Below are positions 31,044 to 49,342 of a stretch of DNA of 55,348 nucleotides, one piece after another. A model generated the notes under the pieces. That model was given only the letters and a program-made list of their open reading frames with translations, made no database searches and was not told the origin of the DNA. The DNA is from Methanobacteriota archaeon (GTDB lineage Archaea; Thermoplasmatota; Poseidoniia; Poseidoniales; Poseidoniaceae), in the NCBI GenBank assembly GCA_002719815.1, contig PBET01000031.1:1-55348 (forward strand), given 5' to 3'. The position numbers were made by a program, and so were the translations under genes. Numbering within the stretch: position 1 is the stretch's first letter; the number at the start of each line of letters is the position of its first letter.

Positions 31044-31510
31044 ACATCACTTCACTCCAACGAAATCGGGAAGGTGCAGCGACTGAATTAGGCTACGTTT
31101 TCACCTTCCTTCTCGGTGTACTTCTCTTGACCATGTTCAGTTTGTGGATTTATGACATCGAATCAGCGACTCGAGAGCGATGGAATGAAGAGGCGATTGA
31201 CGCAAATATGAACGATTTGTCGGCAGCAATTGAACGAACGGACGTTGCAAGTCGTATCGACAATTCCTCGTATGCAGAACGTGTGTATTGGAGGACGACA
31301 GAAGCCGATGAATCTCAATTTACGCTCGAATTAACCGATACAACACTGATTTTGTACGATGCAGAGGGTGAATTGGATACGGAACGTTCCCTTTCTGGAA
31401 CTTCTTCAGTACCACATTCAGGAACGATTGAACTCGCAGGTGTCCAATCCATTTGGGTCGTTTACCACGATGGATTCATCACGCTCGAACTGGACAGACC
31501 GATGTTCTAA
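31040..31510 (+). CDS. Archaeal pilin-like protein 3
   Basis: 156 aa; N-terminal NREGAATELGYVFTFLLGVLLLTMFSLWIY; 4-bp overlap with the preceding ORF. Confidence 0.7.
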   Translation: MNITSLQRNREGAATELGYVFTFLLGVLLLTMFSLWIYDIESATRERWNEEAIDANMNDLSAAIERTDVASRIDNSSYAERVYWRTTEADESQFTLELTDTTLILYDAEGELDTERSLSGTSSVPHSGTIELAGVQSIWVVYHDGFITLELDRPMF

Positions 31511-34020
31511 CGACCCATAATGGCCGAATGTACTTGCGATTGAACTTCTCGCATTCGAGTGCGAGCGCCTAATTCTCTAAAGACTGCAAGTGCTCGTTGG
31601 AGATATTCCATTCGACGTTGTCGATCGGGTGCTACACCACCAAGTTTCGAGAGCAATTCGCCGATTTGCATTCGTAAATCGTTCGCTTCTGCAATAATCA
31701 ATGCTTCTCGATATCGCTCAAGTGCTTCCTCGCTTCGTCCACTATCTTCGAGTACTTCGCCCAAGAGGATCATCAACTCGACCATCGAGACTGGATCACC
31801 CACATCGGACATGATGTTCAACGATTCAGTATAATGGTGCATGGATGTTTCAGCATCGTTCATTTTTGCATGATAACGACCAAGCAATGCTTGTGCACGA
31901 GCATGGGCAAGTAAGTCATCGGCCCGGTCTGTTCGTTCAAATGCCTCGAATGCATGCTTACGAGCACGTTCAACCTCACCTAAATCAAGGAGGGCTCGAC
32001 CAAGAATAATTTGGGCACTGAGCAATGTTTCATCACTGTTGATGATCGCTTCAACTTCTGAATATGCTTCAAGTGCCTTTCCACGGTCATTCTTTCGACG
32101 ATACAAATAGCCCATGTTGTTGTAGGTTCTCGCAGCACCTTTCGCATCACCAAGTTCAACTTGAACTTCAAGGGCTTCTTTGTGCGCAGCAAGTGCGTTA
32201 TCGGTTTGCCCTTGTTTCATTGCGATATCTGCTTGTGAACCAAGAATTTCAGCATAAACCACTGGAAGATTCGCATCTTTTGCTGCACTACTCGCCGTTT
32301 CAAAGATTGAAGAGGCTTGTTCAAATCGGCCGAGCATCAGCAGGATATCACCTTGCAATTGCATCATTGGAGCCATGAGGGAAGAATCCAAACGATCGAC
32401 ATTGACACTTTCGATCAGGCTCAACAATTCGAGATGGCCTTGTGAAACCAATTGACGACCGAATTCTACAATCTTCTCAATGGCCTCTTGTTGATGTTCC
32501 GAGGCAAGTTCATGGTAAATTTGCTCAAGTGTTGTTTCGGATGATTTACTCAACTTACTGTAATATTGGGCGCAAGCATTGTGGACGATTTGTTTGGTTT
32601 GGTCATCGATGCTACGGACCAAGAATTCACGTATCAAATCGTGAACATCGTAGACATCCGTATCAACTTGACGAGCAAGTCCTTGTTCAACCAAACTATC
32701 GAGAACATCAATGTCAAGTTCATGAGAGAGGAGAGCATCGAGAGGGACTGATTCCCTGAAAATTGAAAGAACGGTGAGGACTCGTTTTTGTTCAGCCGAT
32801 AGCTTGGAAAAGATTTCTTTCGTAACATAGTGTTCAAGCGTATCGTGGAAAGCTCCCGCAGATGCTCCGCGATTGATCAATTCCAAAACAAGAGGATGCC
32901 CTCTGGATAATCCATGGATGTGGAGCCATTGTTCTGTGGAGAGGTCTTCAAATCCAGTGAGAATGTTCCGTGCTGCATCAGAATCAAGTCCATCGAGTGG
33001 GAGAACAAGGCTGGTAATACGACCTTCAGCGTCTTTTGTTGGTACAACGGGTTTGAATGAACGAGAGAAGATAACCAAACCTATCGATTCTTCACTACCG
33101 AGCAATCCAATTGTCATCGACTGAATTGTTTGGAAGAGAATTGCATCTGAAACCTTGTGGAAGTCATCGATGACAATTAATGTCGGTGTATTTTCCAAGG
33201 AGTCGATGAGGATTCTGGCAGCATCATCAGGCTTGGGAACGGGTGTAGCAGCAAGATAGTCTGCAAAAGAGGAATCACCAATGTTGAGCAACCATTCTGC
33301 AAGCGATTCAAACAATGCTCGTGAGCCTTCCCAATCTTGACAACGGTGATAGAGAAGATTCCTTCGGTGCATGAATCGTTCGATCAGTTTTGCTGCAATT
33401 GTCGTTTTACCAATTCCTGCAATACCAGGAATCATCAGCGTCGTTGCACGAGCGTCGAGAAGATTAACCATGTTGTCAAGTTCTTTTTCTCGTCCGAAGA
33501 AATGACGTAATCGTGGAAGATCACCAAGTGAGGTAACGAGTTGTTTCTCAACTTGTTTTGACAAATCTCGTTCGATGAGATCCTCTGACAATGATCGTGC
33601 ATCCAGAATCAAATTATCATCCAAGTAGCGAATGATATCGACAGGACGCATTGCGAATGGCAAAACTTCGTGGGCTGCACCGAGTGTTGTCGATACGGTT
33701 TCACCATCGACATTGATGCAACGAAATTGAAACGCTCGAAGACGACCCCATGTTTCTTCAGCGGCTAAAATTCCCGCATCGGTTAGAAAGTAGGCCTTCC
33801 GTTTTCTGCTAACACCTTGGACGTGAGCTTGCCGTTCAACGAGGAGGCCTTGGTCTCTCAAACCAGAGATCGCTCGTGGAACGTTTGAACGTGCAATGGC
33901 GACAGCGTTTGCAATTCCCATCTGTGATAAGGCAAAAGGGACTTCGACTTTCTCTTTGAAATCAGCATAGTCTAGAAGATGCAGAAGCACCTTCTCCTGA
34001 ACGCCAGGTTTGGCAATCAT
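31507..34020 (-). CDS. Winged-helix / STAND-type NTPase / TPR protein
   Basis: 837 aa; N-terminal HTH, Walker A GIAGIGKTT (about 33402-33428), Walker B LIVIDD, multiple C-terminal TPR-like repeats (e.g. AKGAARTYNNMGYLYRRKNDRGKALEAYSEVE). Confidence 0.85.
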   Translation of the reverse strand: MIAKPGVQEKVLLHLLDYADFKEKVEVPFALSQMGIANAVAIARSNVPRAISGLRDQGLLVERQAHVQGVSRKRKAYFLTDAGILAAEETWGRLRAFQFRCINVDGETVSTTLGAAHEVLPFAMRPVDIIRYLDDNLILDARSLSEDLIERDLSKQVEKQLVTSLGDLPRLRHFFGREKELDNMVNLLDARATTLMIPGIAGIGKTTIAAKLIERFMHRRNLLYHRCQDWEGSRALFESLAEWLLNIGDSSFADYLAATPVPKPDDAARILIDSLENTPTLIVIDDFHKVSDAILFQTIQSMTIGLLGSEESIGLVIFSRSFKPVVPTKDAEGRITSLVLPLDGLDSDAARNILTGFEDLSTEQWLHIHGLSRGHPLVLELINRGASAGAFHDTLEHYVTKEIFSKLSAEQKRVLTVLSIFRESVPLDALLSHELDIDVLDSLVEQGLARQVDTDVYDVHDLIREFLVRSIDDQTKQIVHNACAQYYSKLSKSSETTLEQIYHELASEHQQEAIEKIVEFGRQLVSQGHLELLSLIESVNVDRLDSSLMAPMMQLQGDILLMLGRFEQASSIFETASSAAKDANLPVVYAEILGSQADIAMKQGQTDNALAAHKEALEVQVELGDAKGAARTYNNMGYLYRRKNDRGKALEAYSEVEAIINSDETLLSAQIILGRALLDLGEVERARKHAFEAFERTDRADDLLAHARAQALLGRYHAKMNDAETSMHHYTESLNIMSDVGDPVSMVELMILLGEVLEDSGRSEEALERYREALIIAEANDLRMQIGELLSKLGGVAPDRQRRMEYLQRALAVFRELGARTRMREVQSQVHSAIMGR

Positions 34021-34033
34021 TCAATCACACCAA

Positions 34034-37000
34034 TTACTGACCAGGTGGTTGATAGTTTGGATCAGGAACCCATTGATTGCTCTCTTGATCCCACATCCAA
34101 CCAGGGTGCTGAGCGGATTGTTCCGGCACCGCTGGCTGTTGAACAGCAGCCGGGGCAGCAGGTTGTTGCGGCGTTCCGACAACGTCCTTCTTACCCCAAG
34201 CGTATGGGTCAACTTCTTGCTCAACTTCCTGAGTTCCATCGAACTCATCATCGTCTAGTTCTTCAAATTCGATGAAGAAGTAGCCGACTCCACCCAGCAG
34301 AATCAGTGCACCGATGACAATTGCAACGATGAGAAGAACATTCAGGCCCTCATCCTCTTCGCCAACTGCGACTTCAAAGGCTGTTGCATCAGAACTACCT
34401 CCGAACGTTTGACCATTCATCTCAAATTTGATTTCTCGAGAAACGTCATCCAAGTCTTGCAGGCTGATATTCATCGTCCATGTTCCGTCATCACCAACAA
34501 TGACTGATTTGATTGGGAAATCCGATGATACAGTCTTTGCCTCGACCTTGGCACCTGGAAGACCAGTCCCATTGAATACAGCCACAGACTTTGCGGAAAC
34601 TGAATCACCTGGGTTGGTGTAGTCGACATCAAACTTAATCGCTTGAACAAAGAACGTTACGTCCCGAGAGACGGCGAATTCATCAAATCCATCACGAACA
34701 ATGAAACGAACATTCTCGACAGTCCAACTGCTGATATCCTCATTGCTTTGTTTGATGGCAGGATCGTATGTTGCGATTCCCTGACTATCAATATCGATGA
34801 GGTATGGATGATCATCGTCCGTTGAAACGGTTAGATCATCAGCGAAGTCATAAATGAGCACATTGGAATCTGGGTCATTGAAGTATTGCTTCAAATCGAT
34901 AACGCCACCGCCACCACATTGATTCTCTGAACTCGAATCAATAACACAGAAGATTGTAATCTGTGTTTGCCAATTGGTTGCGTTAAACTGTGGAGGGATG
35001 TTGTTCTCATCTGCTGGTTTGGAAATGGTAATTCGCTTGACGAACTCTTCGGAGTAATCCTCACCATCGTAGGCTCTGACTCGGATTTCATATTGACTTT
35101 CATGATCGAGTCGGCTTGTGTCCCAAACTGCGGACCAAGAATAACCAACTGTACTCGCCTGTGTGAAGGTCGTTACAGGACCAGGGCCATCGTTCAGCAG
35201 GAGACCACTCGCCAGATCGAGAATGTCAATTTCGACACGCGTAATCGTACCATCGGAACCATCCGTCGCGAAGCCTTTCAGAATCGTCTCGGTTTCAGCA
35301 CGTACTGGAAGTAAACCAGTCGGTTCGAGTAGTTGGACCATTGGAGGCGTGTTATCGTTCAGAACAGTAACCGTCCTTGTGGAAACCACGCAGATTCCTT
35401 GCTCATCATCACAGAAATCGCTATCACTTGCCCACACTTCAAAGGTGTATTCACCTGTTTCAAGTTCCTCAAAGTTCCATTGATACGCCCAAGCAACAGC
35501 TCCATCAATCGCAAAGTGCGACGAGTATCCATTCGGCCCGGTGACATCGAACCAGATGTTCTCGATATCCGACCCCAATACGCCGTTGTATGGATCCGAG
35601 GCGGTTCCTGTAAAGAGAATCTTGCCGTTGGAGTGGGTTGAGCCATCGAGAGGTTCATCCAGATAAAGCGTTGGTGGAACCAGATTCAACTTGAAATTAC
35701 GAGTGGTAATTGGGGAATAATCCAAGCCATCGTAGGAACGAATTCTGAAGGTAACATCGCTCTCACCATCTGGGTGGGCAGAGAGATCCCAATCAAACGA
35801 CCATGTCTTGAATGGATGGTTCTCTTTTGTCAATTCACCATTTGCACCAGACGTATCGACGGCATAGTACCAATCAGAACTACCAGGTGGTTGAATTTCA
35901 ACGCGCTCAATCAGACCAAATTGACGATCATACGCAATAACATCAAGTGGGTATGGGCCTGATTGACCATCCCAGGCAGTACCTGTAATGACTGCGTTAA
36001 TTGCGAATGAATCTCCATCGTATTGTTCAACTGTAACACTTGGTCGTTGATTATCGAGACTGATGATATCATCGATTGACCCGCTGAGGACAAAGTCGAA
36101 CTCTTTCTTACCCTTGCCGAATTTGTAGGCCTCAACAATGTAGAACGGGAGTTCTCTGCCGTTTACGCAATCTGGATCATCATCATCAACGAATGTATCG
36201 CCGTCATTGTCGTATCCATCCGAGCATGTATCCTCATCGAGGATGGTTGGGTTCGAAGGATCAGATCCCGGAACGGTTACGCCAGTTTCTCCTACGAGGT
36301 GATTCCAGTTACGATCGAGGAGGAAATTGGATGGAAGTGAGACTTGCTGTGTGAAACCAAAACTGTCTGTGGTCAATTCATACAACGGCAATCCAGTTGC
36401 GTCCTTAATGATGACAGTAGCACCAGCAACATTGCTGTTCTTTGCCTTCACTTGATAGCGAACCAATTCACCTTCACGGACTTGTGAACCCCAAGCAGAG
36501 TTTTGGTTTTGCACGTGAATCTTCGTTTCATCGAAATTCTGCAAACTCGCGAACGAGAAAACGGTTGAGTTGTTGACAAGTTCAATTGCGAGTGGCATGT
36601 CTCGAGGTGGAACTGCTGCAGTATCTGGGAGCAACAAACATTCGGATTGGACATAAGGACACTCTGCACCAAGCCATTGAAGCATGACTGGATAGGTGTA
36701 GTCGCCACCCGCATCAGGGATGTATTCAGACTGAACCGTTACCCGCGATTCTGAGATGTTGTACACTTGAGTGGCATTGGTCCATGTATTGCCTGAGAAG
36801 TAACCGATTGAACCATATTTCTGACCATATTTGTTGTCAAAGTGCGAGATGTTAGCTGCAAATTGTCCTGCCTCGATTGAGTTTCGTTGTACATTGACAA
36901 TAGAACCTTTGATTCGCAGACCATCACCTGCATTGTTGGTTACTGTGTTGTCGACGATTGTCGCAGAGGATGTGAAGACGTGAATAGCAGGACACTGGAA

Positions 37001-38365
37001 GTCACCATCATACATCCACAGAGAGTTGCAGGTACCAGTATTGTTTGAAATGACGTTATCAGCAATGTACGCTCTGTTTGGTGAAGGGCCTGGGTAATTG
37101 CTACCCTGATCACGATAGTGATACTCACCAATTTGGATGGCTTCCTTTTCCGTGTTTTGAATGGTGTTGTTTTGGATTTCGACTTCAGATTGGCCATAGA
37201 CCCAGAAACCGTTGTAGCCTCCAATAGGGCCAATTGTGTTTCGATGAGCGGATACCGTCGAATCACGGATACCGAATCCAGAACCTGCTGAAGCACCAGA
37301 AATGGTGTTTGAGGTCGCTACAACAATCGCACCATCGTATGCGGTAATTCCAGCGCCTTCTCCTGTCGTGATGACGTTATTGTCGAGGTAAAGTGTGTGT
37401 GCGAAGTTACCCGTGGATTTGTATGAGTTCGTGTCAATAGCGTTGCACAGAACATTGATTGTACTGTTTCCAAAGGATCCAGATGAACCCTTGAAAAACG
37501 CACCATAGGCATTGTCCTTGACGTCGAGATTGTCCATCGAGACATAGGAATTTTCGGCATAAATCAATACACGACCTCCACCCTGATTGCCACATTGTGC
37601 TTGTGTGTTACCAGTAAATGTTGAACCTGTGATGGTGAGTGATGAAAGAATACCTGCTCCAGCATCGTAAGCACGAACTGCTGCCGCATCGTAGCCACGC
37701 CCATCATCACCAAGTGTGAATGTTGAATCACGAATTGTTGGAGCTGCGAAATCCAATGCAATGATATTGGAAGTGTTGATGTTGGAGAAGGCAAGGTTAT
37801 CGAGCATTGCGGAAGATCCGTCAAAGACAAGCGTACCATACTGAACTGCTTGCAGTGTCTGGACATAGATTGGATGTCCGTATGCATTGTTGAATGAGAC
37901 GTGGGACATTCCCGTCGAAGCTTGGTTAATGGTGTTTCGAATGATGACACCAGAACCACATGCTGCATCCGTGTTGGTTAACAACTGGTTGCCCTGTTGG
38001 TAACAGCGACCAGTAACGGTGGTGTCCGCAGGAAGAGCCCATTCAAAACGAATGGTTGATGATGAACTTCCTTGGGTTGCCCCACAAGAGGCTGAACCTG
38101 CACAGATCGCACCTTCGACATCAATGTAGACACCTGCAGGAATATTGATTGTCGTTCCTGCTTGAATGATGAGTTTTGCACCTTCAGCAACGGTTACATC
38201 ACCGGTCAATGTGTGTGTTCCACTCCAAGTCTCTGTTGTGAGAATCTCACCATTTGATGTTTCGTTGACAGCACTTGCAGTCGGCACGGTCACCAATCCG
38301 ATCATCAGGGATGTAAGTAAGAGCCCTACAAGACCTACACTTTTTCCAATATTTGCAATTCGCAT
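34034..38365 (-). CDS. Giant parallel-beta-helix/Ig-like surface protein with C-terminal TM and Trp-rich tail
   Basis: Start likely MRIANIGKSVGLVGLLLTSLMIG (38363-38365); repeated N-x-I-x-N helix-type motifs (NNTIQNTEKEAIQIG, DNVISNNTG, DNTVTNNAGDGLRIKG); TM VLLIVAIVIGALILLGGVGYFFI; tail HPGWMWDQESNQWVPDPNYQPPGQ. Confidence 0.88.
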   Translation of the reverse strand: MRIANIGKSVGLVGLLLTSLMIGLVTVPTASAVNETSNGEILTTETWSGTHTLTGDVTVAEGAKLIIQAGTTINIPAGVYIDVEGAICAGSASCGATQGSSSSTIRFEWALPADTTVTGRCYQQGNQLLTNTDAACGSGVIIRNTINQASTGMSHVSFNNAYGHPIYVQTLQAVQYGTLVFDGSSAMLDNLAFSNINTSNIIALDFAAPTIRDSTFTLGDDGRGYDAAAVRAYDAGAGILSSLTITGSTFTGNTQAQCGNQGGGRVLIYAENSYVSMDNLDVKDNAYGAFFKGSSGSFGNSTINVLCNAIDTNSYKSTGNFAHTLYLDNNVITTGEGAGITAYDGAIVVATSNTISGASAGSGFGIRDSTVSAHRNTIGPIGGYNGFWVYGQSEVEIQNNTIQNTEKEAIQIGEYHYRDQGSNYPGPSPNRAYIADNVISNNTGTCNSLWMYDGDFQCPAIHVFTSSATIVDNTVTNNAGDGLRIKGSIVNVQRNSIEAGQFAANISHFDNKYGQKYGSIGYFSGNTWTNATQVYNISESRVTVQSEYIPDAGGDYTYPVMLQWLGAECPYVQSECLLLPDTAAVPPRDMPLAIELVNNSTVFSFASLQNFDETKIHVQNQNSAWGSQVREGELVRYQVKAKNSNVAGATVIIKDATGLPLYELTTDSFGFTQQVSLPSNFLLDRNWNHLVGETGVTVPGSDPSNPTILDEDTCSDGYDNDGDTFVDDDDPDCVNGRELPFYIVEAYKFGKGKKEFDFVLSGSIDDIISLDNQRPSVTVEQYDGDSFAINAVITGTAWDGQSGPYPLDVIAYDRQFGLIERVEIQPPGSSDWYYAVDTSGANGELTKENHPFKTWSFDWDLSAHPDGESDVTFRIRSYDGLDYSPITTRNFKLNLVPPTLYLDEPLDGSTHSNGKILFTGTASDPYNGVLGSDIENIWFDVTGPNGYSSHFAIDGAVAWAYQWNFEELETGEYTFEVWASDSDFCDDEQGICVVSTRTVTVLNDNTPPMVQLLEPTGLLPVRAETETILKGFATDGSDGTITRVEIDILDLASGLLLNDGPGPVTTFTQASTVGYSWSAVWDTSRLDHESQYEIRVRAYDGEDYSEEFVKRITISKPADENNIPPQFNATNWQTQITIFCVIDSSSENQCGGGGVIDLKQYFNDPDSNVLIYDFADDLTVSTDDDHPYLIDIDSQGIATYDPAIKQSNEDISSWTVENVRFIVRDGFDEFAVSRDVTFFVQAIKFDVDYTNPGDSVSAKSVAVFNGTGLPGAKVEAKTVSSDFPIKSVIVGDDGTWTMNISLQDLDDVSREIKFEMNGQTFGGSSDATAFEVAVGEEDEGLNVLLIVAIVIGALILLGGVGYFFIEFEELDDDEFDGTQEVEQEVDPYAWGKKDVVGTPQQPAAPAAVQQPAVPEQSAQHPGWMWDQESNQWVPDPNYQPPGQ

Positions 38366-38397
38366 ATTTATTCCTCTATGTCTTTGCAGAAACCGGA

Positions 38398-38410
38398 CAA
38401 ATATAATACT
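38398..38410 (-). promoter_or_regulatory. Candidate TATA box upstream of the beta-helix surface protein
   Basis: Reverse strand reads AGTATTATATTTG about 35-45 nt upstream of the ATG at 38365, in an AT-rich noncoding region. Confidence 0.5.
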
Positions 38411-38520
38411 GCGCCCCAGATGACACACGTAAATGTATCATTTTAAGATGATAATATCATTATTTAGGCATTAAGAATATCAATATTCCTCAAAGATATC
38501 AAGTTTCTAAGCATGAAAAA

Positions 38521-39726
38521 TTAGCAATTCGGACTTTCGGAGACCCGATTAAGCCATAATTCTGCATTGAGTTCACCATAGCCGTTTCGAGAATCATGTG
38601 AGAAATCTGAACTCAATGATTCTGCCAGAGCTCGTTTGACGAGTTCAATACAAGCAGTCGTTGATGTCGCGTTTGGCTTTAATTCTGGGTGTGCTTCAAG
38701 AATCAATGCCAATGCACCCGCAACAAATACCGTAGCATCCGATGTGCCACTGGATGAATACCATTGGTCGTTCTTTCCTGTCGATACAATTCCAACCCCA
38801 GGAGCGGTCAATTCTGGTTTTTGATGTGGAAAGATACGTGGATCACCAGCACTATCAACCGATTCACCCATGGACGATTGACTCCAAACTGAACCATCCC
38901 TGTTCGATGCACCAACGGTGATGGCAAGATTGACGTTACCGGGTGCGCTGACAAAACCATCATCTGCAGAACCACCATCGTTACCGGCAGCAGCAACGAC
39001 AAAAATTCCTTCATCAATTGCTTGCCGAGTTGCAGAAACAGCAGGACCTTCTCTTGAGGCTGATTGATCTTGCTCACCACCCAATGAGAGTGAGATGATG
39101 TCGGCTTCAAAATCGAAGACGCACCATCGGATTGCATCACCAACCCTCGTCTCAGAACCAGTGTTGTTGTCACCATCAGCACTCAAGGCAGCCGCCATTC
39201 CTAATGTCACATTGGGGGCAATGCCAATTTGGAGATCGTTTGAAATCAACAAGCCTGCCATCAATGTACCATGAGAAATTGAACCATAATCCACAGGATC
39301 TGTTGATGAGCCTACAAAATCCTTGAACACAACATCTGCATCTTCAAGCGATGTATGCGTGAGAGAGAGTCCTGTATCGACCATACAAACACGTACACCT
39401 TCTCCTGAGAGTCCATCATCTTGCAATGAACGAACCTCTGATTGTTCAAACGCCCATTCCGAAGTTGAAGGTGGTAATTCCAACAACAAGAGATTTGATT
39501 GCCAAAGCACGACAATGATGCCCAAAAAGAGCGCCATCATCACACCAGAAGTGATTGAGAACAAACGCCTTGGCCGATAAGGAAGCGTATCTGGAAGGGT
39601 TGGAGCCCACCCAGTTACCTCCGCCCTCCATTGATCTTGATGATCATTGGTTGATGGGTCAACTGCTGAGAGAATCTTGGGCTCCCCTGGTTCAGGAAGC
39701 AATTCAACTCCACGCAATTCTTCCAT
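38521..39726 (-). CDS. Membrane-anchored subtilisin-like serine protease (S8)
   Basis: Asp (VRVCMVDTGLSLTH), His (SISHGTLMAGLL), Ser (SSSGTSDATVFVAGAL) motifs; single N-terminal TM (ITSGVMMALFLGIIVVLW). ORF track starts at 39741. Confidence 0.92.
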   Translation of the reverse strand: MEELRGVELLPEPGEPKILSAVDPSTNDHQDQWRAEVTGWAPTLPDTLPYRPRRLFSITSGVMMALFLGIIVVLWQSNLLLLELPPSTSEWAFEQSEVRSLQDDGLSGEGVRVCMVDTGLSLTHTSLEDADVVFKDFVGSSTDPVDYGSISHGTLMAGLLISNDLQIGIAPNVTLGMAAALSADGDNNTGSETRVGDAIRWCVFDFEADIISLSLGGEQDQSASREGPAVSATRQAIDEGIFVVAAAGNDGGSADDGFVSAPGNVNLAITVGASNRDGSVWSQSSMGESVDSAGDPRIFPHQKPELTAPGVGIVSTGKNDQWYSSSGTSDATVFVAGALALILEAHPELKPNATSTTACIELVKRALAESLSSDFSHDSRNGYGELNAELWLNRVSESPNC

Positions 39727-39781
39727 GCTTCTCCCACCCAAATCGGTGGTTCTCTCGTATCAAACCTTGTCTCAAGACAAA

Positions 39782-42700
39782 TCAGAAACGGCCACCAGAG
39801 CGACGGGCTCGTTCAGAGGCCTTGAATCCGAAGTAAAGGATGATGAAGATCAAACCAATGATTGCAATTGTAACAATTGGGTTGGATGTTTCTTCAGATC
39901 CTTGTACAAGATATTCAATTCCGAAGTCTTCAGCATTGTCGGCATCGTTGTTCGAGAAGTTGAAATCATCTCCAAGAACTTCCCATCGAACGTCGTATCG
40001 AGTAATTCCTTGACTTGCTGCAGGTAGAATAAATTCGAATTCTGTTGTGGTTGATGCAGGCATTGTAAGGGTCACATTCATCTCTGAAATTGAATCACTG
40101 TCGAGATAGACCGTCACCAACTGAGCTGAACGCAATCCTGTATTTTCCATCACGATGATGACTGTGTTCGGATCAACATCAGCGAAGTTGTTGCTTCGAG
40201 ACTTGGTCAAATCTTCATCGAAACTCAATGCGATTCGAGCTGCTTCGACTTCGATATCATATTCCTCTGTTGTCGTTCCGTCTTCACTCGTAATTCGAAC
40301 AGTGATGGTGATTGGTCCTTCCTCAAAGTCTGGTGCAGAGGTGACGCTAAAGGCAAGATCTCGCATGTTCTCCTTTGCAATGGTTGTTACACCGTTCATT
40401 GGTGTAACAGTCCAACCTTCTGGTAGATTGTCCAATACTTCGTAGGTAAAGGAGTCATCACCGTTACCATTGTTGTTGATGGTCATGGTTGCGGTTGTTG
40501 TACCGCCAGGACCAACACCGATGGTTGATGAGAGGTCCGTTACATTGAATCCATAGTACTGAGGAATCTCAACGTTCAACGAAACTTCACTCATGTCACC
40601 ACTGTCTGCTGAGAATCGGATGTTCACATCGTGACCATTTTCAAGCCACCATGCCGCTTCAACAGATGGTAGGACGATTCGTGCACGAACGGTCTCTTCG
40701 AGCGTTGCATTTCCAGCAACATCACCAATGCCGAGTTGGACAATGGTCGAATCGATCCAATCGGTTCCGTTGTAGAATTCAACCGACCAATCATCTTGAT
40801 CTGGTGAGACGGTAACTGAACCAGTAACACCGAATGGGTCTGAAATTTCCGTTCCTTCATAGACAGCAACAACATCAAACTCAATCGATGTGTAATTGGC
40901 GTCATCCGATGTGTTGACGGTTGCAAGCAAGTCACGGTTTTCATCACCAAGAACGGTTGCACCCTCAACGTTGATGATTGAAAGCACGAGATCGCTGTTG
41001 GTCTTTCTGTTGTAGGAAAGCATGACAGCAGTTCGACCTTCATCACCATTATCGATGGAGATTCCAGCGGTATAATTCATCGTAAGATCTCGTTGAACTG
41101 TGGTAAATTCTGAGTTGAAGGTTACCGAATCAGCAGGAAGGAGTACTTCCATTGTTCCATCCGTTTCGAGAGGAATCATCCAAGCCTTTCCATCACCGAG
41201 GTCGACTTCAACTTCAACAACATCTGTGACAGGCGATTCGGAATTCTCCGTTCCTGCGTTGAATGTTTGGAGGTTGAACGAAGTGAATTCGGTCGAGAGA
41301 TCAACCCATCCACCCTTGCTCATCACGAGTTCGATGGTTCCACCGTTTTGTACTTCAGCGTCCAGCAATCCAACTGTAACACCACCACCGTTGAATGGAG
41401 CATCGTCCTCATAGACGACAACAACCCATTGCCCAGGTTCGACCACAGCTGTGAAAGACAGTGTCTCATCAGCGAATGTACCGATGACGTCAACCGAATC
41501 CTGTTGGTTCTCAGACGTACCATACAGGGTAATCGAGGCATCCTCGAGTCGAGTCGCATCGAGTACATCCGTAATTGAACCTGTGACCGTTACTTCGGCG
41601 GCAGACATCTCAATGTCTTGCGAAACAGGTTCATTGTCGACGACATACGTACCAGTGTTGTTGTCATCGTATGAAACGACACCAAATCCTTCCTTTTCGA
41701 TCGTAATGGCGTAGTTCTCCAAAATTGGTACATACAATCGCCAGACACCAGTCGAATCGGTTTCAACAACCGTATCGATGCTTCCACCCTGAATTGTAAC
41801 AGTTGCGCCTTCAACACCCTCGTTTGCATCTGCAATGTCGTCCTCGTCAGTGTCCCAGTAGGCCTTACCTCCGATCTCAACTTCCAATGCAGCATACACA
41901 ACATCGAGTGATGTGTTTTCGTTCATGATTACAGGAGCATCGGATGTATCCAATGTCCAGTAGCGTTGTGCTGCAGATTCATTCATGAAGAGACTCCACG
42001 TTCCTGGCATCAACAATTGCGTTGCATTACCATCAGCATCGGTTGGATTCATGGTAATGTTTCCAAAGCCATCATGGCTGACAAGAACGACGTTCTTTCC
42101 AACAAGTTCTGAATCAGTACCGAGTTCCTTCAATGTCAATGAAACCTCAACCGCCTCAACGAGGGCAAGTGAGAGTTCAGTCCGTGCACTCGAGTCTGCA
42201 TCGATTGTGATTGGCATACGGAGTGATTCTGTGATTGCATCACCGTTGAGCATTGGTGCAACAACAACAATGTAATCACCACTTTCGACGTAGGTTGCAA
42301 ACGTACCATTCTCATCAACGCTAATCGGCACGTAATCGGAGCCATCGGGCGTCGAGAGCAAGAAGTTCTCAACCATTGCTGAACCATTGGCCCATGTGAT
42401 GGTACCATTCATTCGCCATGCGTCGACGATTGGAACAATAATTGCCTCTTCTGGGCCAGTCAATCCGACTGGGATGACATCCAAGACGCCATTGATCTCA
42501 AGACTCGCATCGGTTGCATTTTCGTCAGATGCATCCAAGTTGTTGGTTGTAATTGCATAGATACCAGGACTCAAGACGACATCGACAATTCCATCTTCGG
42601 TATAATCATCGGACGTGATGTTCACTTGTTGTCCGACTTCAGAGACCGGAATGAGTTGGATATCTGGTCGAATCGCAGTTCCATTTTCAAAGACCCCGTC

Positions 42701-45700
42701 GCCCAAGTCGGTAAAGACATTGAGCGTCACAGTGCTGTTGCTTGGATTGGTAATCAAGTCAACAGGCTCTGGGTTCGAGCCATCTTCAACGAGAACTTGG
42801 TAATCTGAAACCGTATCTGCGTTGTACGCCGCATCTGGGATTGTGAACGACCATGTGCCGTTCAAGAGAGGCATATTGAACAATCCAGCAGTGTCTGTTG
42901 TGACTGTCCATACAACACCATCTTCTCCAGTCGCGTGGATTTCAACCGGCTCAAAGTTTGGAATGTCTTGGTTCCAGTTCGTCTCGTTATCGAAGAGATA
43001 GACAGCTCCAATAACATCAACAGTTGGAGCGAGGATCAACACATCAAGTTCATCCATTCCTTCCGTTACAGTAACAGAAGCACCAACAGCGAAACTCGAT
43101 ACCGAACTTTGCGCATTGAGGTTGAAGGTCATTCCAGCAGGGAGGCGTTGACTGAATTCACCAAATTGATCGGTGACAGCCGTGAATTCCAATCCATTAC
43201 CATGGAATCGAACTGGTACAGCACTTGCGTTATCGTACGACTTCTCTTCCTCAGGGAACTCAAGCCATTGTTCATAGGTGAATCCAACAATGTTTGGAGC
43301 ATCGATTGAACCATTCACCCAAACCGAAGTTGCGTAGGTGAAGTCCAACGTCATATCCGAATCTTCAACCTTGATTTCTTCAATAAGGATGTAGTCTTCG
43401 TCATTGTTATCACTAATGGACCATTCTCCAATCGGAAGTTCAACAAACACAACGCCATTTTCATCCGATACAACATCAATTGGCATCAAGCCAAGTGGAT
43501 CGGTAAAGTTGACTTCACGGCCTGCAACATCAAAGCCTTCAGGGCCGTTGAGCGTAATGGTCAAATCGAACATTTCAGGAACGCCCATGTCGAAGGTGAA
43601 GTTCATCGGCTCGTCAAAGACCTGCATGGTTTGGTTGAGTTCGTAGAATCCATCTTCGTCCAAATCCACACGGAGGTAATAATTACCCGCAGTGATCGGT
43701 CCATACGAGACATTTCCTTCTTCGTCGGAGATGAGTGTAATCATCTCATCTTCACCAAGTTCAATATCGATGAGTTGAATTTCTTGGTTTGGAATCAAAT
43801 CTCCTGTCATACTCTCGAGTGTATCTTCGAACAATGAGGCAGGGACGGTCATGGACAAGTCATAACTCGCCTCAATGCCTACTTCAACAGGATCTGGTAG
43901 CAAAATCTCTCGTCCATTTGGCATAAGTGCAATCATGTTGTAGACACCTGGTACAAGTCCAGTTCGATAGAATGAACCAGGATCGACAATGTCGCCACTA
44001 AACGAACCCGGGCCAATAAATTGTCCAGTACCATTGAGTGTACCAACACCCTCGAAGATACCAGTTCCTTCGAAGGTTTCACCATCAAGCTCCTTGGTCA
44101 AGGTGCTCACGCCATCAGAGGTCAAACGACCATTGGCCTTTGCTAAACCATCCAAGAGATAGGTCGAGAAGTCTGTGCTGACACTGACTAAACAAAGTGT
44201 CGCATTCTCAGGCATTGTGTTGTTTTCACCACACTCGAGTGATGCATTATCGTGTTCAATCCACGTCGCTTCAATCGTACCCTTTCCGACCCATGTACCG
44301 TTTCCAGAGTATACACGAGCATCATTGATTTCTCGAGTAAAGTTACCCGTGAAGTCGTAAGCGAGTGCAACACCTTCGCTCGTGAAAGTACCAACGTCAG
44401 AGAATGTTACTTCACCTGTACCTTGGAGAACGCGTGTTTCATCGGTATCAAAGGAACCGTTTGTTGTCGTGAGTGTGTAGTTCTCGGTCATTGCCCAAAT
44501 GTTTCGGAGAATGAAGTCCGTCTCTACGAGTGGTTCACCATCGAAATCACCGTAACCCGACCAAGTGACTGTACCTGAGACACCCGAACTTTCAACTTCG
44601 ATGTCCATTGCAGTTGTCACATCTTCATGACGATCGGCTTGTGCGCCCGTGATGTTGAGCATGGTTTCACCGAGCCATGTCATGTTCGCAACTTCACCGA
44701 GAATTGCAGTGATAGCGTAGACTTCACGGTCGTCGTTGACCTCGGTCAAGACATCGCCAAATCCGTTCGCAAATTCACCACTTTGGATGTCTTGAATTGC
44801 AAACGTATCATCATAGATGCCAGCGAACGCAGAAACTCGGATTTTACCAGCAGGCGCTAAGAAACTCCAATCACCGTTCTCATCAGCATCGGTCATGCCG
44901 ATTGGAATCCAGTAGGTGTCTTCGTCAAGGTCTTCTGAGCCTTCGCCTGAAAACGCATCACGTTCGATGAGAATTCGAGCATTTGGCAGACCCATACCAT
45001 CGTCTGCAGTCTTGACAGTACCGGAAATCTCAGCACCAGAGTAGTACTTCATGATCTTGACATTGTCGTTTGCAAAGATTGCAGGCACCTCAGGATCGTA
45101 CCAGTTAGCGATAACAAAGTGATTCATCATTGCACCAGGCATTGGATATGCTTGTTGCAAGAAGGATGTTCCACGATCGTTTTCACCCAATTGTTGACGT
45201 GGTTGAGGGTTGGTCGAACCAGCATCTGCACCAAGTGTTGAAGCACCATAGCCGACATAAGATCGCGCCAGCATGGTATCGAAGAACTCAGGCAGATGAT
45301 CAATTCGGATGTCCTGTACAGTGAGTGGCTCGATATCAGCACCGGATTGTTGGTCCAGTACATCCTTCAGCATGGCCTCATCCACAGCCTCTCTGTCCAT
45401 TTCGAGAACAGGTTGGTCACCACGCTTTGTTTCATACACTTCGTTTGTGAAGGTGTTGAAATCTTGACCAGAGAGAATGGTTGGTGCACCGAAGATACCC
45501 AATGGCCGTCCTCCGTTGTAGCCTGCTTCTGAGTTGTAACGACCAGCACGAGGGTAGAGTTTGTCGTCGATTGCGAAGTATCGAATTTCGTGATCTCGCT
45601 TGAATGTTTCACCAGGAGCTCCATTGTAATCTTGAACTTCGTAATTGTCTTCAAGTTCAATGATTGCATGATAGAGATCGACAACTTCGTCATCAGTCAA

Positions 45701-48700
45701 ACTGTTTATCAAGAATTGGACAACGAGTGCGATATGAGCGTTCGAACGGTGGATATCGGTTGAGACCGAACCATATTCTTCGACCAAATCAGCCGTGTAC
45801 CAATACTCACCGAATGTGTAATGCGTTACATCAGACACTTCCTCTGCACTAACATCAGCATTGTTACGGAAGGTGCTGTTTGCAGATTCTTCAGTCACAT
45901 AATCGCCGTTGCGACAGAATTCTTCGCTTGGGTTGTCACAAGGAATGATCTCTCCATCAGCCCAAACACGGTAGTGGATTCCAAGAGATTCATCAGGGAT
46001 TCCATTTGCGTCAAGTGGATAGCCACTGGTCATGTACGCATCGCCTTTGCTCTTGAATACCTTGAATGAATGATCGACAACGACATCAGCCATATCATCG
46101 AAATCCATCCCTTCTCGAAGCATGAGCAAATCAAGTTCAGCACGTTGTTCGGCGTTGTTCAATCCATTGTCAAGAACAGCGTCAAAGCCAGGCGTAAAGC
46201 CACGATCACCAGTCTTGACGATGTTGTAGGCAATGTCACCTACTGCAAGATGTTGAATGAACATTGCAACGAGATCGGTTTGACTGCGCGCCAACAGCAT
46301 GTTACCTGATGCAGGGATACCACTCTGGAAGTTGTCGGAAACGGAAGGATGCTCACCAGTGTTGAGTGCTTGGAAACCGTAGTCCCACCATGAGACGAAC
46401 GCAGGTTTGTCACCAAATCGCATTTCACAGAGACCTGATGTTTCATTCGTTTGTTCCCAAATACCGTTTTCAGCATTGCATGCGGTCTCGGTTGTGGCAT
46501 CAACGTGGTATTTGTCTTGTTGCGCCAGCCATTCGTGTGCAGCATTCCAGGATTGTCCATTGAAACCGCTTCCGAATGAGCCCATGTAAGCACGGCCACC
46601 AAACGCTTCGTATTCCCTGCTATCCAGAACAGATACGCCAAGTCCATCCCAGCGCATGATATCAGGCACACTGTAGTAGAACGATTCGTCCATGTCACCT
46701 TCTGCAGGAGAGTTACTTGGAATAGCAGAGTCAAGACCGTAGGTCAGTTGCTGGCCTGAGAGCATGATAAGGACAAGAACGACGGCGGAGAAGGATGGTG
46801 TGCGCCAAACAGCACGACGTGCTCCCGCGATTCGTTCCGAGGGTGTTCGAATACCTGCACGGCGCCAGTTACGGACAAGTCCGTCCCAATTCGCCCACTT
46901 CCAGAAGCCTACAATACCTGCAGCACCCATCACAGCAACAACAGGTGTTGCGTTGAAGAGGAAACGGGCAGCAGTCCACGACATGTAGGATGCTGCGAAA
47001 ATCCATACGGCGAATACCAAAGCGATTTGGCTACGTTGGCTGAAGGTTCTCCACAAGGATGTCAGTCCTACAACAAGCGCAAAGACGAAGACAATCGGTC
47101 CGAAACTTGCAAACATGTAACCACGATCTGGTGCGTTTGCTTCAGCAACTGTTCCGAAAATCTTGGTCTTGGTGAAGTAGCCACTACCAGTAAACAAGAC
47201 GTCCCATGCGTTGCTGAGATTGGTGACCTTCAACACGTACAGCGCGCTCAGGAAGACAGTTGCTCCCACAGCGAGTGTGCCGAGAACAAGCAACCAAGGC
47301 TTGTCTCGGAAACCGGTTGTGATGTACATGATGACCACAGTGAACAGCAAGATGAAGAGGAACGGTTGTAGACCGGTACCATCCAACATGAGGTTCATTT
47401 GTGGATGTGCATAGAACGGAAGCGCAATCAACAGATTTGTCAAAAGCATGGTCAAGAAGAGCGTGCTGAGAATTGTTGAGTCACGACGTCGGAACATGTT
47501 GAGTGCAACTTGTGCGGCGTAAGCGAGGAACAGAATTGCTGGTCCAGCAACGAAACCTTTCCAACCGAGACTCGCAGCACCGAAAGCAACACCAGCGAGC
47601 ACTGCGTTCGACATTGCATACTTGCGCTCTTGAGCAACTGCGCCCATCGCCCGCATCATATCGATTGGACGGATGGATGTTGTCCGAACAAGTCGTTCTG
47701 AACCGGCATACTTGACAGCACGCAGATAGAACATGAATCCAAGCGCAATGAATAGCATGACGAAGGAATCGTGATCAGCGAGTCCCCATGTTGAGTGTGT
47801 GACGTGTGCTGGCATGAAGGCAATCAACCATGCGGCGATAACACCCGCCGCCTTGCCAAAGTGGTCACGTGCAATCGTAGCAACTGGGAAAATTGTGAGC
47901 GCTCCGTAGATTGCAGGGAGAGCAAGCATGCTCCACCAAACTGCATCTTCACCGAGGAACGGCTGGAGGATCATAGCGCCAATGGCCAAACTCCACGAAA
48001 ACAACGGTGGACGTGGGTTGATTCCACCGATTGGGTAGAATCGATCAGCATCGACAACAAGGTGAGCATTCTGCGCAAGGATGTAATCAACAACCCGCTT
48101 CATGTACCAAGGGTCAGAACCTCCAGTCATGTCGAAACCTTCTGTTCCCATTGCGTGCATGGAAGGAACAGCGTACCACTGGATACGGATAACAAGTCCA
48201 ACCAAGAAAGCAACAGCCGTCAAGAGACTTGCCCAGTGTGCATTCCAGAACTGACGTGCACCACTTGGGCGGTGTTCTTCACGATTGGACCAACCACCGT
48301 ACTTCTCGTGGTTACCGATCATTGTGATCGCAACACCAACGAAGAACGTGATGGCCAACCAGATGAGTGGCGCCCACGATTCAGAGAACGTTTCGTTGGT
48401 CCAGAAGCCGGCTTCGTACCATGCTCCAAGGAGGTAGAGCACCCAGAGTGACGAGATTGTCATTGCACGGGTAAACCAGCGCTCTGCAACCATTCCAGAG
48501 ACGATGATGGCGATGATACCGGTGAGAAGAGCCGTGTAATAGCCAACGAAGCCACTGGCTTCGACACCACCGAGTCCACCGAGACGAAGACGATCGGCAA
48601 TTGAGCCCTGATCGAAATGCCAGATGGTTGCAAGGTGTGCACCTGCCCAAATGAACAAAGCAATTTGCAATGGGAGCGCTTCTCGATTCCAAACGCCTTC

Positions 48701-49342
48701 GACATTGTTGTAAGCGAACCAACCCTTGCCTCCAGCAGGACTGAGGAAACCTCGTCCAGCAACACCGACGAGAAGACCAAGAATCGGGAACACCGTGAAC
48801 CACGTAAAGAAGACAAAACCGATGGCTGTTTCTTGGAATGTGGATACATCGATGGGTTGGCCTTCGGAAAATTCGTACTTGCTCGGGATGTATGTATCGA
48901 CCGCTGCAGCTGCCGTGATATCGAAAGCTGAATGCACACCAACACCTGCGAAGATGAGCATTGTCATCCATTCGTAGCGTTCATTCGTATCGAGCAAATA
49001 CCCACCAAATAGAACGACGAAGAATGTGAATCCGACAAAACCATCGGTTTGTGTTTCGGCAACACCTGAACCGACGAGAGCGAGGACAAACATAGCGAGG
49101 GAGATTTGTGTCTGAGAGATCGACTCTGGGAGGGTTCCTAGTTCACGGAGGATGCGAGGTGTGACAGCCAAGAATCCGGCTACACCTGTCACGATGAATG
49201 GCGTCATCGCATCGCTGTTCAATTCGACATCAATCGACATGAGTCCATCGACGTAGTTTGCTAGTATTGCAATAAGCACCGCAAGTGGGGCAATAAGCCA
49301 ACCAAAAACGGGTCGTTGCGAGGTCTTTGCTACCTTTTCCAT
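39782..49342 (-). CDS. aglB: Giant oligosaccharyltransferase (STT3/AglB family) with N-terminal polytopic and C-terminal ectodomain extensions
   Basis: 3186 aa; acceptor-loop GGSDPWYMKR (D at about 48113-48115), GLADHDSF (DHD 47768-47776), TVAE (47141-47152), WWDYG (46376-46390); long Ig/carboxypeptidase-regulatory-like repeats; terminal TM IVTIAIIGLIFIILYFGF. Confidence 0.9.
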   Translation of the reverse strand: MEKVAKTSQRPVFGWLIAPLAVLIAILANYVDGLMSIDVELNSDAMTPFIVTGVAGFLAVTPRILRELGTLPESISQTQISLAMFVLALVGSGVAETQTDGFVGFTFFVVLFGGYLLDTNERYEWMTMLIFAGVGVHSAFDITAAAAVDTYIPSKYEFSEGQPIDVSTFQETAIGFVFFTWFTVFPILGLLVGVAGRGFLSPAGGKGWFAYNNVEGVWNREALPLQIALFIWAGAHLATIWHFDQGSIADRLRLGGLGGVEASGFVGYYTALLTGIIAIIVSGMVAERWFTRAMTISSLWVLYLLGAWYEAGFWTNETFSESWAPLIWLAITFFVGVAITMIGNHEKYGGWSNREEHRPSGARQFWNAHWASLLTAVAFLVGLVIRIQWYAVPSMHAMGTEGFDMTGGSDPWYMKRVVDYILAQNAHLVVDADRFYPIGGINPRPPLFSWSLAIGAMILQPFLGEDAVWWSMLALPAIYGALTIFPVATIARDHFGKAAGVIAAWLIAFMPAHVTHSTWGLADHDSFVMLFIALGFMFYLRAVKYAGSERLVRTTSIRPIDMMRAMGAVAQERKYAMSNAVLAGVAFGAASLGWKGFVAGPAILFLAYAAQVALNMFRRRDSTILSTLFLTMLLTNLLIALPFYAHPQMNLMLDGTGLQPFLFILLFTVVIMYITTGFRDKPWLLVLGTLAVGATVFLSALYVLKVTNLSNAWDVLFTGSGYFTKTKIFGTVAEANAPDRGYMFASFGPIVFVFALVVGLTSLWRTFSQRSQIALVFAVWIFAASYMSWTAARFLFNATPVVAVMGAAGIVGFWKWANWDGLVRNWRRAGIRTPSERIAGARRAVWRTPSFSAVVLVLIMLSGQQLTYGLDSAIPSNSPAEGDMDESFYYSVPDIMRWDGLGVSVLDSREYEAFGGRAYMGSFGSGFNGQSWNAAHEWLAQQDKYHVDATTETACNAENGIWEQTNETSGLCEMRFGDKPAFVSWWDYGFQALNTGEHPSVSDNFQSGIPASGNMLLARSQTDLVAMFIQHLAVGDIAYNIVKTGDRGFTPGFDAVLDNGLNNAEQRAELDLLMLREGMDFDDMADVVVDHSFKVFKSKGDAYMTSGYPLDANGIPDESLGIHYRVWADGEIIPCDNPSEEFCRNGDYVTEESANSTFRNNADVSAEEVSDVTHYTFGEYWYTADLVEEYGSVSTDIHRSNAHIALVVQFLINSLTDDEVVDLYHAIIELEDNYEVQDYNGAPGETFKRDHEIRYFAIDDKLYPRAGRYNSEAGYNGGRPLGIFGAPTILSGQDFNTFTNEVYETKRGDQPVLEMDREAVDEAMLKDVLDQQSGADIEPLTVQDIRIDHLPEFFDTMLARSYVGYGASTLGADAGSTNPQPRQQLGENDRGTSFLQQAYPMPGAMMNHFVIANWYDPEVPAIFANDNVKIMKYYSGAEISGTVKTADDGMGLPNARILIERDAFSGEGSEDLDEDTYWIPIGMTDADENGDWSFLAPAGKIRVSAFAGIYDDTFAIQDIQSGEFANGFGDVLTEVNDDREVYAITAILGEVANMTWLGETMLNITGAQADRHEDVTTAMDIEVESSGVSGTVTWSGYGDFDGEPLVETDFILRNIWAMTENYTLTTTNGSFDTDETRVLQGTGEVTFSDVGTFTSEGVALAYDFTGNFTREINDARVYSGNGTWVGKGTIEATWIEHDNASLECGENNTMPENATLCLVSVSTDFSTYLLDGLAKANGRLTSDGVSTLTKELDGETFEGTGIFEGVGTLNGTGQFIGPGSFSGDIVDPGSFYRTGLVPGVYNMIALMPNGREILLPDPVEVGIEASYDLSMTVPASLFEDTLESMTGDLIPNQEIQLIDIELGEDEMITLISDEEGNVSYGPITAGNYYLRVDLDEDGFYELNQTMQVFDEPMNFTFDMGVPEMFDLTITLNGPEGFDVAGREVNFTDPLGLMPIDVVSDENGVVFVELPIGEWSISDNNDEDYILIEEIKVEDSDMTLDFTYATSVWVNGSIDAPNIVGFTYEQWLEFPEEEKSYDNASAVPVRFHGNGLEFTAVTDQFGEFSQRLPAGMTFNLNAQSSVSSFAVGASVTVTEGMDELDVLILAPTVDVIGAVYLFDNETNWNQDIPNFEPVEIHATGEDGVVWTVTTDTAGLFNMPLLNGTWSFTIPDAAYNADTVSDYQVLVEDGSNPEPVDLITNPSNSTVTLNVFTDLGDGVFENGTAIRPDIQLIPVSEVGQQVNITSDDYTEDGIVDVVLSPGIYAITTNNLDASDENATDASLEINGVLDVIPVGLTGPEEAIIVPIVDAWRMNGTITWANGSAMVENFLLSTPDGSDYVPISVDENGTFATYVESGDYIVVVAPMLNGDAITESLRMPITIDADSSARTELSLALVEAVEVSLTLKELGTDSELVGKNVVLVSHDGFGNITMNPTDADGNATQLLMPGTWSLFMNESAAQRYWTLDTSDAPVIMNENTSLDVVYAALEVEIGGKAYWDTDEDDIADANEGVEGATVTIQGGSIDTVVETDSTGVWRLYVPILENYAITIEKEGFGVVSYDDNNTGTYVVDNEPVSQDIEMSAAEVTVTGSITDVLDATRLEDASITLYGTSENQQDSVDVIGTFADETLSFTAVVEPGQWVVVVYEDDAPFNGGGVTVGLLDAEVQNGGTIELVMSKGGWVDLSTEFTSFNLQTFNAGTENSESPVTDVVEVEVDLGDGKAWMIPLETDGTMEVLLPADSVTFNSEFTTVQRDLTMNYTAGISIDNGDEGRTAVMLSYNRKTNSDLVLSIINVEGATVLGDENRDLLATVNTSDDANYTSIEFDVVAVYEGTEISDPFGVTGSVTVSPDQDDWSVEFYNGTDWIDSTIVQLGIGDVAGNATLEETVRARIVLPSVEAAWWLENGHDVNIRFSADSGDMSEVSLNVEIPQYYGFNVTDLSSTIGVGPGGTTTATMTINNNGNGDDSFTYEVLDNLPEGWTVTPMNGVTTIAKENMRDLAFSVTSAPDFEEGPITITVRITSEDGTTTEEYDIEVEAARIALSFDEDLTKSRSNNFADVDPNTVIIVMENTGLRSAQLVTVYLDSDSISEMNVTLTMPASTTTEFEFILPAASQGITRYDVRWEVLGDDFNFSNNDADNAEDFGIEYLVQGSEETSNPIVTIAIIGLIFIILYFGFKASERARRSGGRF

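Follow-up and report, generated by a model that had tools for sequence, protein, structure and literature searches.

The oligosaccharyltransferase (OST) AglB of archaea is usually seen as compact, with a single subunit of approximately 900–1000 residues. The window analysed here, a stretch of 55,348 nucleotides from a genome of the Poseidoniales, which are one of the most abundant marine archaeal groups, contains a frame for a putative AglB of 3186 residues. The frame is located on the minus strand (39782..49342), begins with an ATG at position 49342, terminates with a stop codon at 39782–39784 and has no internal stops. All features given below with coordinates are located on this strand. The locus raises the question of whether such a frame codes for one protein and, if so, what an OST of this size might do with its additional residues. 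The initial annotation had proposed a single giant AglB that is extended by several extracellular domains and anchored in the membrane a second time.

According to its sequence, the protein is an STT3/AglB OST. The STT3 transmembrane region (residues 366–870; 46733..48247) contains the first DXD motif (GSD, with D410 in the segment GSDPWYM), the second DXD motif (DHD, residues 523–525) and the TIXE motif (TVAE, residues 731–734). The catalytic motif WWDYG (residues 985–989; 46376..46390) is part of the C-terminal catalytic globular part (residues 871–1436; 45035..46732), in which residues ~1090–1205 constitute a Poseidoniales-specific insertion. The full set of STT3 motifs that had been claimed was thus located. 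In a comparison of 54 STT3 cores from the phylum, 53 retain D410, and both E734 and WWDYG are invariant. The counterparts of the motifs in AfAglB are the metal ligands and the TIXE and WWDYG motifs described for that enzyme (PMC8342417). The Pfam family STT3 (PF02516) matched residues 407–803 with 45.7 bits (cut-off 24.5). TIGR04154 (E 2e-46) scored under its own cut-off, as did AglB_core (PF22627; residues 931–1021), which reached 20.1 bits with a cut-off of 27. The closest relatives in the PDB are AfAglB and yeast STT3. AfAglB-L of Archaeoglobus fulgidus (PDB 3waj, 5gmy, 7e9s) has the STT3 membrane domain, the catalytic globular domain and the motifs GxD, DxH/D, TI/VxE and WWDYG in common with the Poseidoniales protein. 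Compared to this enzyme, which consists of 868 residues (499 in the membrane part and 369 in the globular part; PMC3703281), the Poseidoniales protein possesses in addition a membrane block of 362 residues at the N-terminus, approximately 1750 residues of modules and a second anchor. Wherever an STT3 match was found in a Poseidoniales genome, it was the only one; the giant AglB is the only detected OST of the cell.

The 3186-residue AglB is a real, single protein, and neither a chimera nor a frameshift product. A single uninterrupted frame of 3124–3335 residues was found in 84 other genomes, as counted in the table of the 144 genomes of the class that were searched. Both Poseidoniales families are represented among them. 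With the first 1446 residues as a query, 58 of 59 relatives and 142 of the 144 genomes of the class were positive; the shorter AglB frames in this table are mostly located at contig ends. Furthermore, the giant AglB was found in 52 named MAG loci from many studies, many of which are cut by contig ends. Two separate ORFs in homologues would have pointed to a fusion artefact. The sole break in a near-complete genome was observed in the single-contig relative G033, where two abutting frames (L125) join at residue ~1567. Both halves are otherwise full length, and the joint lies inside a module and does not mark a gene boundary; the most economical explanation is a sequencing frameshift, and the break is probably an error of this kind rather than a real mutation. 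It is thus extremely improbable that an assembly chimera, a frameshift fusion or a mis-annotation joins two genes, since the intact frames in the 84 genomes and the MAG loci of many studies outweigh both the break in G033, which is not shared, and the internal stops seen in a few fragmentary MAGs.

For approximately 1700–1750 residues after the catalytic half, the chain is extracellular, and a membrane helix follows at the C-terminus. The first prealbumin-like module (residues 1437–1510; 44813..45034) also occurs in short AglBs of the phylum. Few parts of the protein are as well conserved as residues 1451–1500 of this module, which is consistent with a packing of the module on the catalytic domain. 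Next come a glycine-rich (GxGT) stretch (residues 1540–1800; 43943..44725), which is largely a Poseidoniales-specific insertion, and roughly nine more prealbumin/carboxypeptidase-regulatory-like modules (residues ~1801–2640; 41423..43942), whose signatures repeat every 86–99 residues from residue ~1786 on. An Ig-like region (residues ~2690–3140; 39923..41275), which contains a choice-of-anchor T match below the cut-off (residues 2914–3028), precedes the C-terminal transmembrane helix (residues 3155–3173; 39824..39880) and a basic cytoplasmic tail with the sequence KASERARRSGGRF. The predicted double anchoring of the protein rests on hydropathy and charge. With the motifs, the modules and the C-terminal helix in place, the overall architecture proposed in the initial annotation was confirmed.

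Beyond residue ~1440, the protein matched CarboxypepD_reg (E 5.8e-12) and, weakly, a SpaA-like family. The modules of all 16 homologues that were scanned matched CarboxypepD_reg as well; further matches were SpaA, SdrD_B and NOMO domains. With respect to module types, the expected carboxypeptidase-regulatory modules were thus found in the protein itself, whereas CARDB or NEW3 modules were not and were called only near the C-terminus of homologues. A structural model of residues 880–2075 is of moderate confidence (pLDDT 60, pTM 0.40) and contains beta modules with a pLDDT of ~80 or more around residues 1437–1507 and 1768–1960. The fold matches of the modelled modules were Cna-B-type pilins and adhesins. 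The modules of the extension are prealbumin-like domains, which is the fold of eukaryotic NOMO and of bacterial pilins. Sortase-type pilins and the adhesins SdrD and UafA, which contain Cna-B-like modules, are likewise built of beta-sandwich modules whose fold is broadly the same. In contrast to the sortase-type pilins, however, no sortase-pilin family was matched, and the modules belong here to a membrane enzyme.

The genes purD and that of CDP-archaeol synthase are located upstream of the giant AglB. Downstream are the genes of an S8 subtilase of 406 residues (38521..39741) and of a secreted beta-helix/Ig-like protein of 1464 residues (34034..38428). This downstream order, with both genes on the strand of AglB, is kept in both families, with a gap of 18–59 nt between AglB and subtilase, and suggests co-transcription. 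It also fits a scenario in which post-translational cleavage of the precursor yields an AglB of normal size and a separate, anchored surface glycoprotein, with the adjacent subtilase as a conceivable protease. However, the subtilase as called has no obvious signal peptide, and no subtilase/beta-helix pair was seen next to the giant AglBs of other families; the pair is for these reasons left out of the mechanism proposed below. Moreover, the catalytic part runs on without a break into the first module, which is strongly conserved. Such a cleavage is therefore considered very unlikely. Next to the beta-helix gene, the window codes for a protein of 837 residues (31507..34020) with a winged helix, an AAA/STAND-type NTPase and TPR repeats. 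No match to it was found beside AglB in the Poseidoniales relatives examined, and a conserved placement was not seen.

The distribution of the architecture was determined by a search with PF02516 within the phylum Thermoplasmatota. Two kinds of STT3 proteins exist, which comprise ~900–1430 residues and ~1.9–2.75 thousand residues, respectively; the latter occur in many families. Forms shorter than 1430 residues have no membrane helix after WWDYG. The complete giants of more than 2 thousand residues that were extracted with WWDYG have a membrane helix at the C-terminus, with one exception of 3321 residues (L073); in one further protein (L107), the C-terminus is cut by a contig end. The AglBs of the Poseidoniales (families f1 and f2) are the longest in the phylum sample. 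Those of f3, a sister family in the class that is probably Marine Group III, have 2317–2359 residues. In a tree of the cores, the Poseidoniales proteins group with those of f3 and f12, both of which are giant; the deeper grouping is moderately supported (92/96). The short forms of the families f5, f16, f29 and f34 constitute one long-branched clade. Profile-profile alignments of all residues after WWDYG extended over the full length, with E-values of 3e-65 for Poseidoniales versus f3, and of 5e-89 and 3e-128 for Poseidoniales versus two groups of other families. These comparisons gave many shifted (off-diagonal) secondary alignments; the extension therefore contains tandem modules.

Since giant AglBs of 2.0–2.7 thousand residues occur across the Thermoplasmatota and their extensions can be aligned from end to end, the extension is, as judged from these homologies, old and not peculiar to Poseidoniales. 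The profile alignments and the tree rule out an order-specific extension, and the rarity implied by the initial annotation does not hold. The C-terminal membrane helix is likewise common to the Poseidoniales proteins and the other giants. The latter, however, are 400–1100 residues shorter and have neither the N-terminal block of the Poseidoniales nor most of the insertion at residues 1540–1800; the extra residues of the Poseidoniales proteins are mainly insertions at ~1090–1205 and 1540–1800. A MAG labelled "uncultured Rhodobiaceae bacterium" also contains Poseidoniales AglBs (CALDQY010000265.1 and CALDQY010000105.1, L066 and L099), which are 87–96% identical. This MAG is a mixed or mislabelled bin.

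The N-terminal block (residues 1–362; 48257..49342) comprises nine transmembrane helices, occurs only in Poseidoniales and is always fused to STT3. A profile search detected it in 48 Poseidoniales genomes; it is absent from the genomes resembling Marine Group III and from the rest of the phylum sample, except for one marginal match of 33 residues (E 0.007). In the structural model, the block forms a separate membrane domain of nine helices (pLDDT 78, pTM 0.78). A search for PDB or viral folds gave no matches, and Pfam yielded no reliable family. It was considered that the block is the fused form of a gene that stands alone elsewhere, but none of 197 genomes of the phylum contained a standalone copy. 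An origin by duplication from the STT3 membrane region was rejected, as no match was found. The same applies to a relationship with the N-terminal additions of L107 and L108. These two giant AglBs of the families f20 and f13 contain a different membrane addition of ~230 residues at their N-terminus, which is unrelated to the Poseidoniales block. Because the block is fused to the sole detected OST in every Poseidoniales lineage examined, it is plausible to assume that it acts in cis as an OST subunit.

The extension of the 3186-residue protein contains 38 sequons, compared to 17.3 expected from shuffling (z 5.7). No enrichment was observed in the N-terminal block, the membrane part or the catalytic globular part. 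In the same protein, the reversed motif, too, somewhat exceeds the number expected from shuffling (24 versus 17.3). Pooled over 23 Poseidoniales homologues, which are not independent, the extension has 2.26 times the expected number of sequons and a forward/reverse ratio of 2.21, whereas sequons are depleted in the catalytic part (0.73 times). For the control group of 118 other N-terminally anchored or secreted ORFs of the same loci, which are related to one another, both values were 0.99; these controls are proteins encoded near the AglB gene and in the 55-kb window. The flat values of these neighbouring controls argue against an enrichment that is a general trait of secreted proteins. Among 119 long ORFs in 17 loci, giant AglBs make up 17 of the 19 with the highest sequon enrichment. 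Most giant AglBs of other families display the same enrichment and a few do not. An alignment of 16 homologues contained 576 sequons in 148 columns, most of which are common to few sequences; at the level of sequence, the density is kept while the positions turn over. Part of the enrichment could result from N-G-T turns of the beta modules. Elsewhere in the window, a secreted protein of 1916 residues (21005..26755) is sequon-enriched (z 3.6); its neighbours of 1807 and 1464 residues are not.

Because sequons are enriched in the extension and, on the whole, not in the other secreted proteins of the same loci, the extension itself is probably glycosylated, that is, made an N-glycoprotein by its own enzyme. 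The idea that the protein is its own glycosylation substrate, which had been raised at the outset, is thereby backed indirectly. PF00953, the family of the initiating sugar-phosphate transferases of the Alg7/AglH/WecA type, was not detected in any of 29 Poseidoniales genomes; Haloferax volcanii, which served as one of the controls, was also negative. It may therefore be a GT2 enzyme acting on dolichol monophosphate that initiates the lipid-linked glycan. In a metatranscriptome of Poseidoniales, transcripts of an oligosaccharyltransferase gene were raised in samples in which the genus O1 was active (PMC9723583); an OST gene of Poseidoniales is therefore expressed.

The function of the extension can be interpreted in several ways. 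Its length, the beta modules of the pilin kind, the heavy sequon load and the C-terminal region resembling choice-of-anchor T would suit a structural surface protein of an S-layer or glycocalyx, of which the catalytic half is the membrane base, so that the enzyme is embedded in the coat. The S-layer-like stalk suggested in the initial annotation is a version of this interpretation. However, the modules have no S-layer-specific feature, and no S-layer family was matched in the Pfam and NCBIfam scans of the protein and its homologues. A doubly membrane-anchored catalytic protein would furthermore be unusual as a lattice subunit. The idea is weakened further because the same architecture is common to many families of a phylum that includes cultured, AglB-encoding members without an S-layer (PMC5155288). 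A predominantly structural role is thus rather unlikely.

Alternatively, the extension might be a platform at the translocon that recruits substrates or assists their folding in the manner of NOMO, and its own glycans would then be incidental. Eukaryotic NOMO belongs to a translocon complex (PMC11186639); it is a component of the BOS complex in the multipass translocon (PDB 9c7v). Module type and layout are the same, namely an array of prealbumin-like domains that is followed by a membrane anchor. When profiles of the extension were compared to PDB sequences, NOMO2 was the best match (E 7.6e-30, 1.5e-26 and 0.0013), in the first two cases far ahead of other chains. The match is not collinear, however. 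The same query modules match several NOMO domains, and the similarity therefore reflects a shared domain type; orthology is ruled out, as there is no collinear one-to-one match of domains. Moreover, NOMO is a separate, non-catalytic protein, whereas the array of the giant AglB is part of the enzyme, and the conservation of the sequon density speaks for glycans that matter. Taken by itself, the platform interpretation is doubtful.

We favour, with a probability of roughly 0.55, a giant AglB in which the only detected OST carries a self-glycosylated arch with an anchor at both ends, and in which this arch serves as a scaffold or spacer. In one polypeptide, the nine-helix block would be followed by the STT3 membrane domain, the catalytic globular domain, about ten prealbumin-like modules, the Ig-like modules and the second anchor. 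Because both ends of the protein are predicted to sit in the membrane, the extension would arch, or form a folded stalk, above the catalytic site outside the cell. The enzyme would glycosylate the extension of its own chain in cis or, in an oligomer, that of another subunit in trans, which would create a dense sugar coat. The arch would then most likely be a glycosylated scaffold and spacer at the site where new surface proteins exit the translocon. It may keep room for emerging substrates and hold them beside the active site, and would thus do in cis the job of separate lumenal subunits of the eukaryotic enzyme. We infer this topology, the self-glycosylation and the scaffold or spacer function; the arch shape and a packing on the catalytic domain are proposals, as the model of residues 880–2075 is of moderate confidence. 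More tentatively, the OST might be the principal N-glycoprotein of the cell: the OST of Thermoplasmatota would carry and sugar its own doubly anchored coat or spacer, to which the Poseidoniales would have added an N-terminal membrane subunit.

The enzyme class and the fold of the modules are already known. No description of a giant AglB in Thermoplasmata or Poseidoniales was found in the open-access literature, which this search covered. What appears to be undescribed is the combination, together with its spread through the phylum, the sequon load specific to the extension and the N-terminal block.

Much of one phylum uses AglB forms that are two to three times the usual size and possess a conserved, sequon-loaded and re-anchored extension. 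As an OST that consists of a single polypeptide, the giant AglB makes it testable how substrates and coat are handled, and whether arrays of prealbumin-like domains close to the translocon have a similar purpose in archaea and eukaryotes. It further provides a nine-helix membrane domain that has no structural match, and it is an obvious target with which the glycoproteomics of uncultured archaea could begin.
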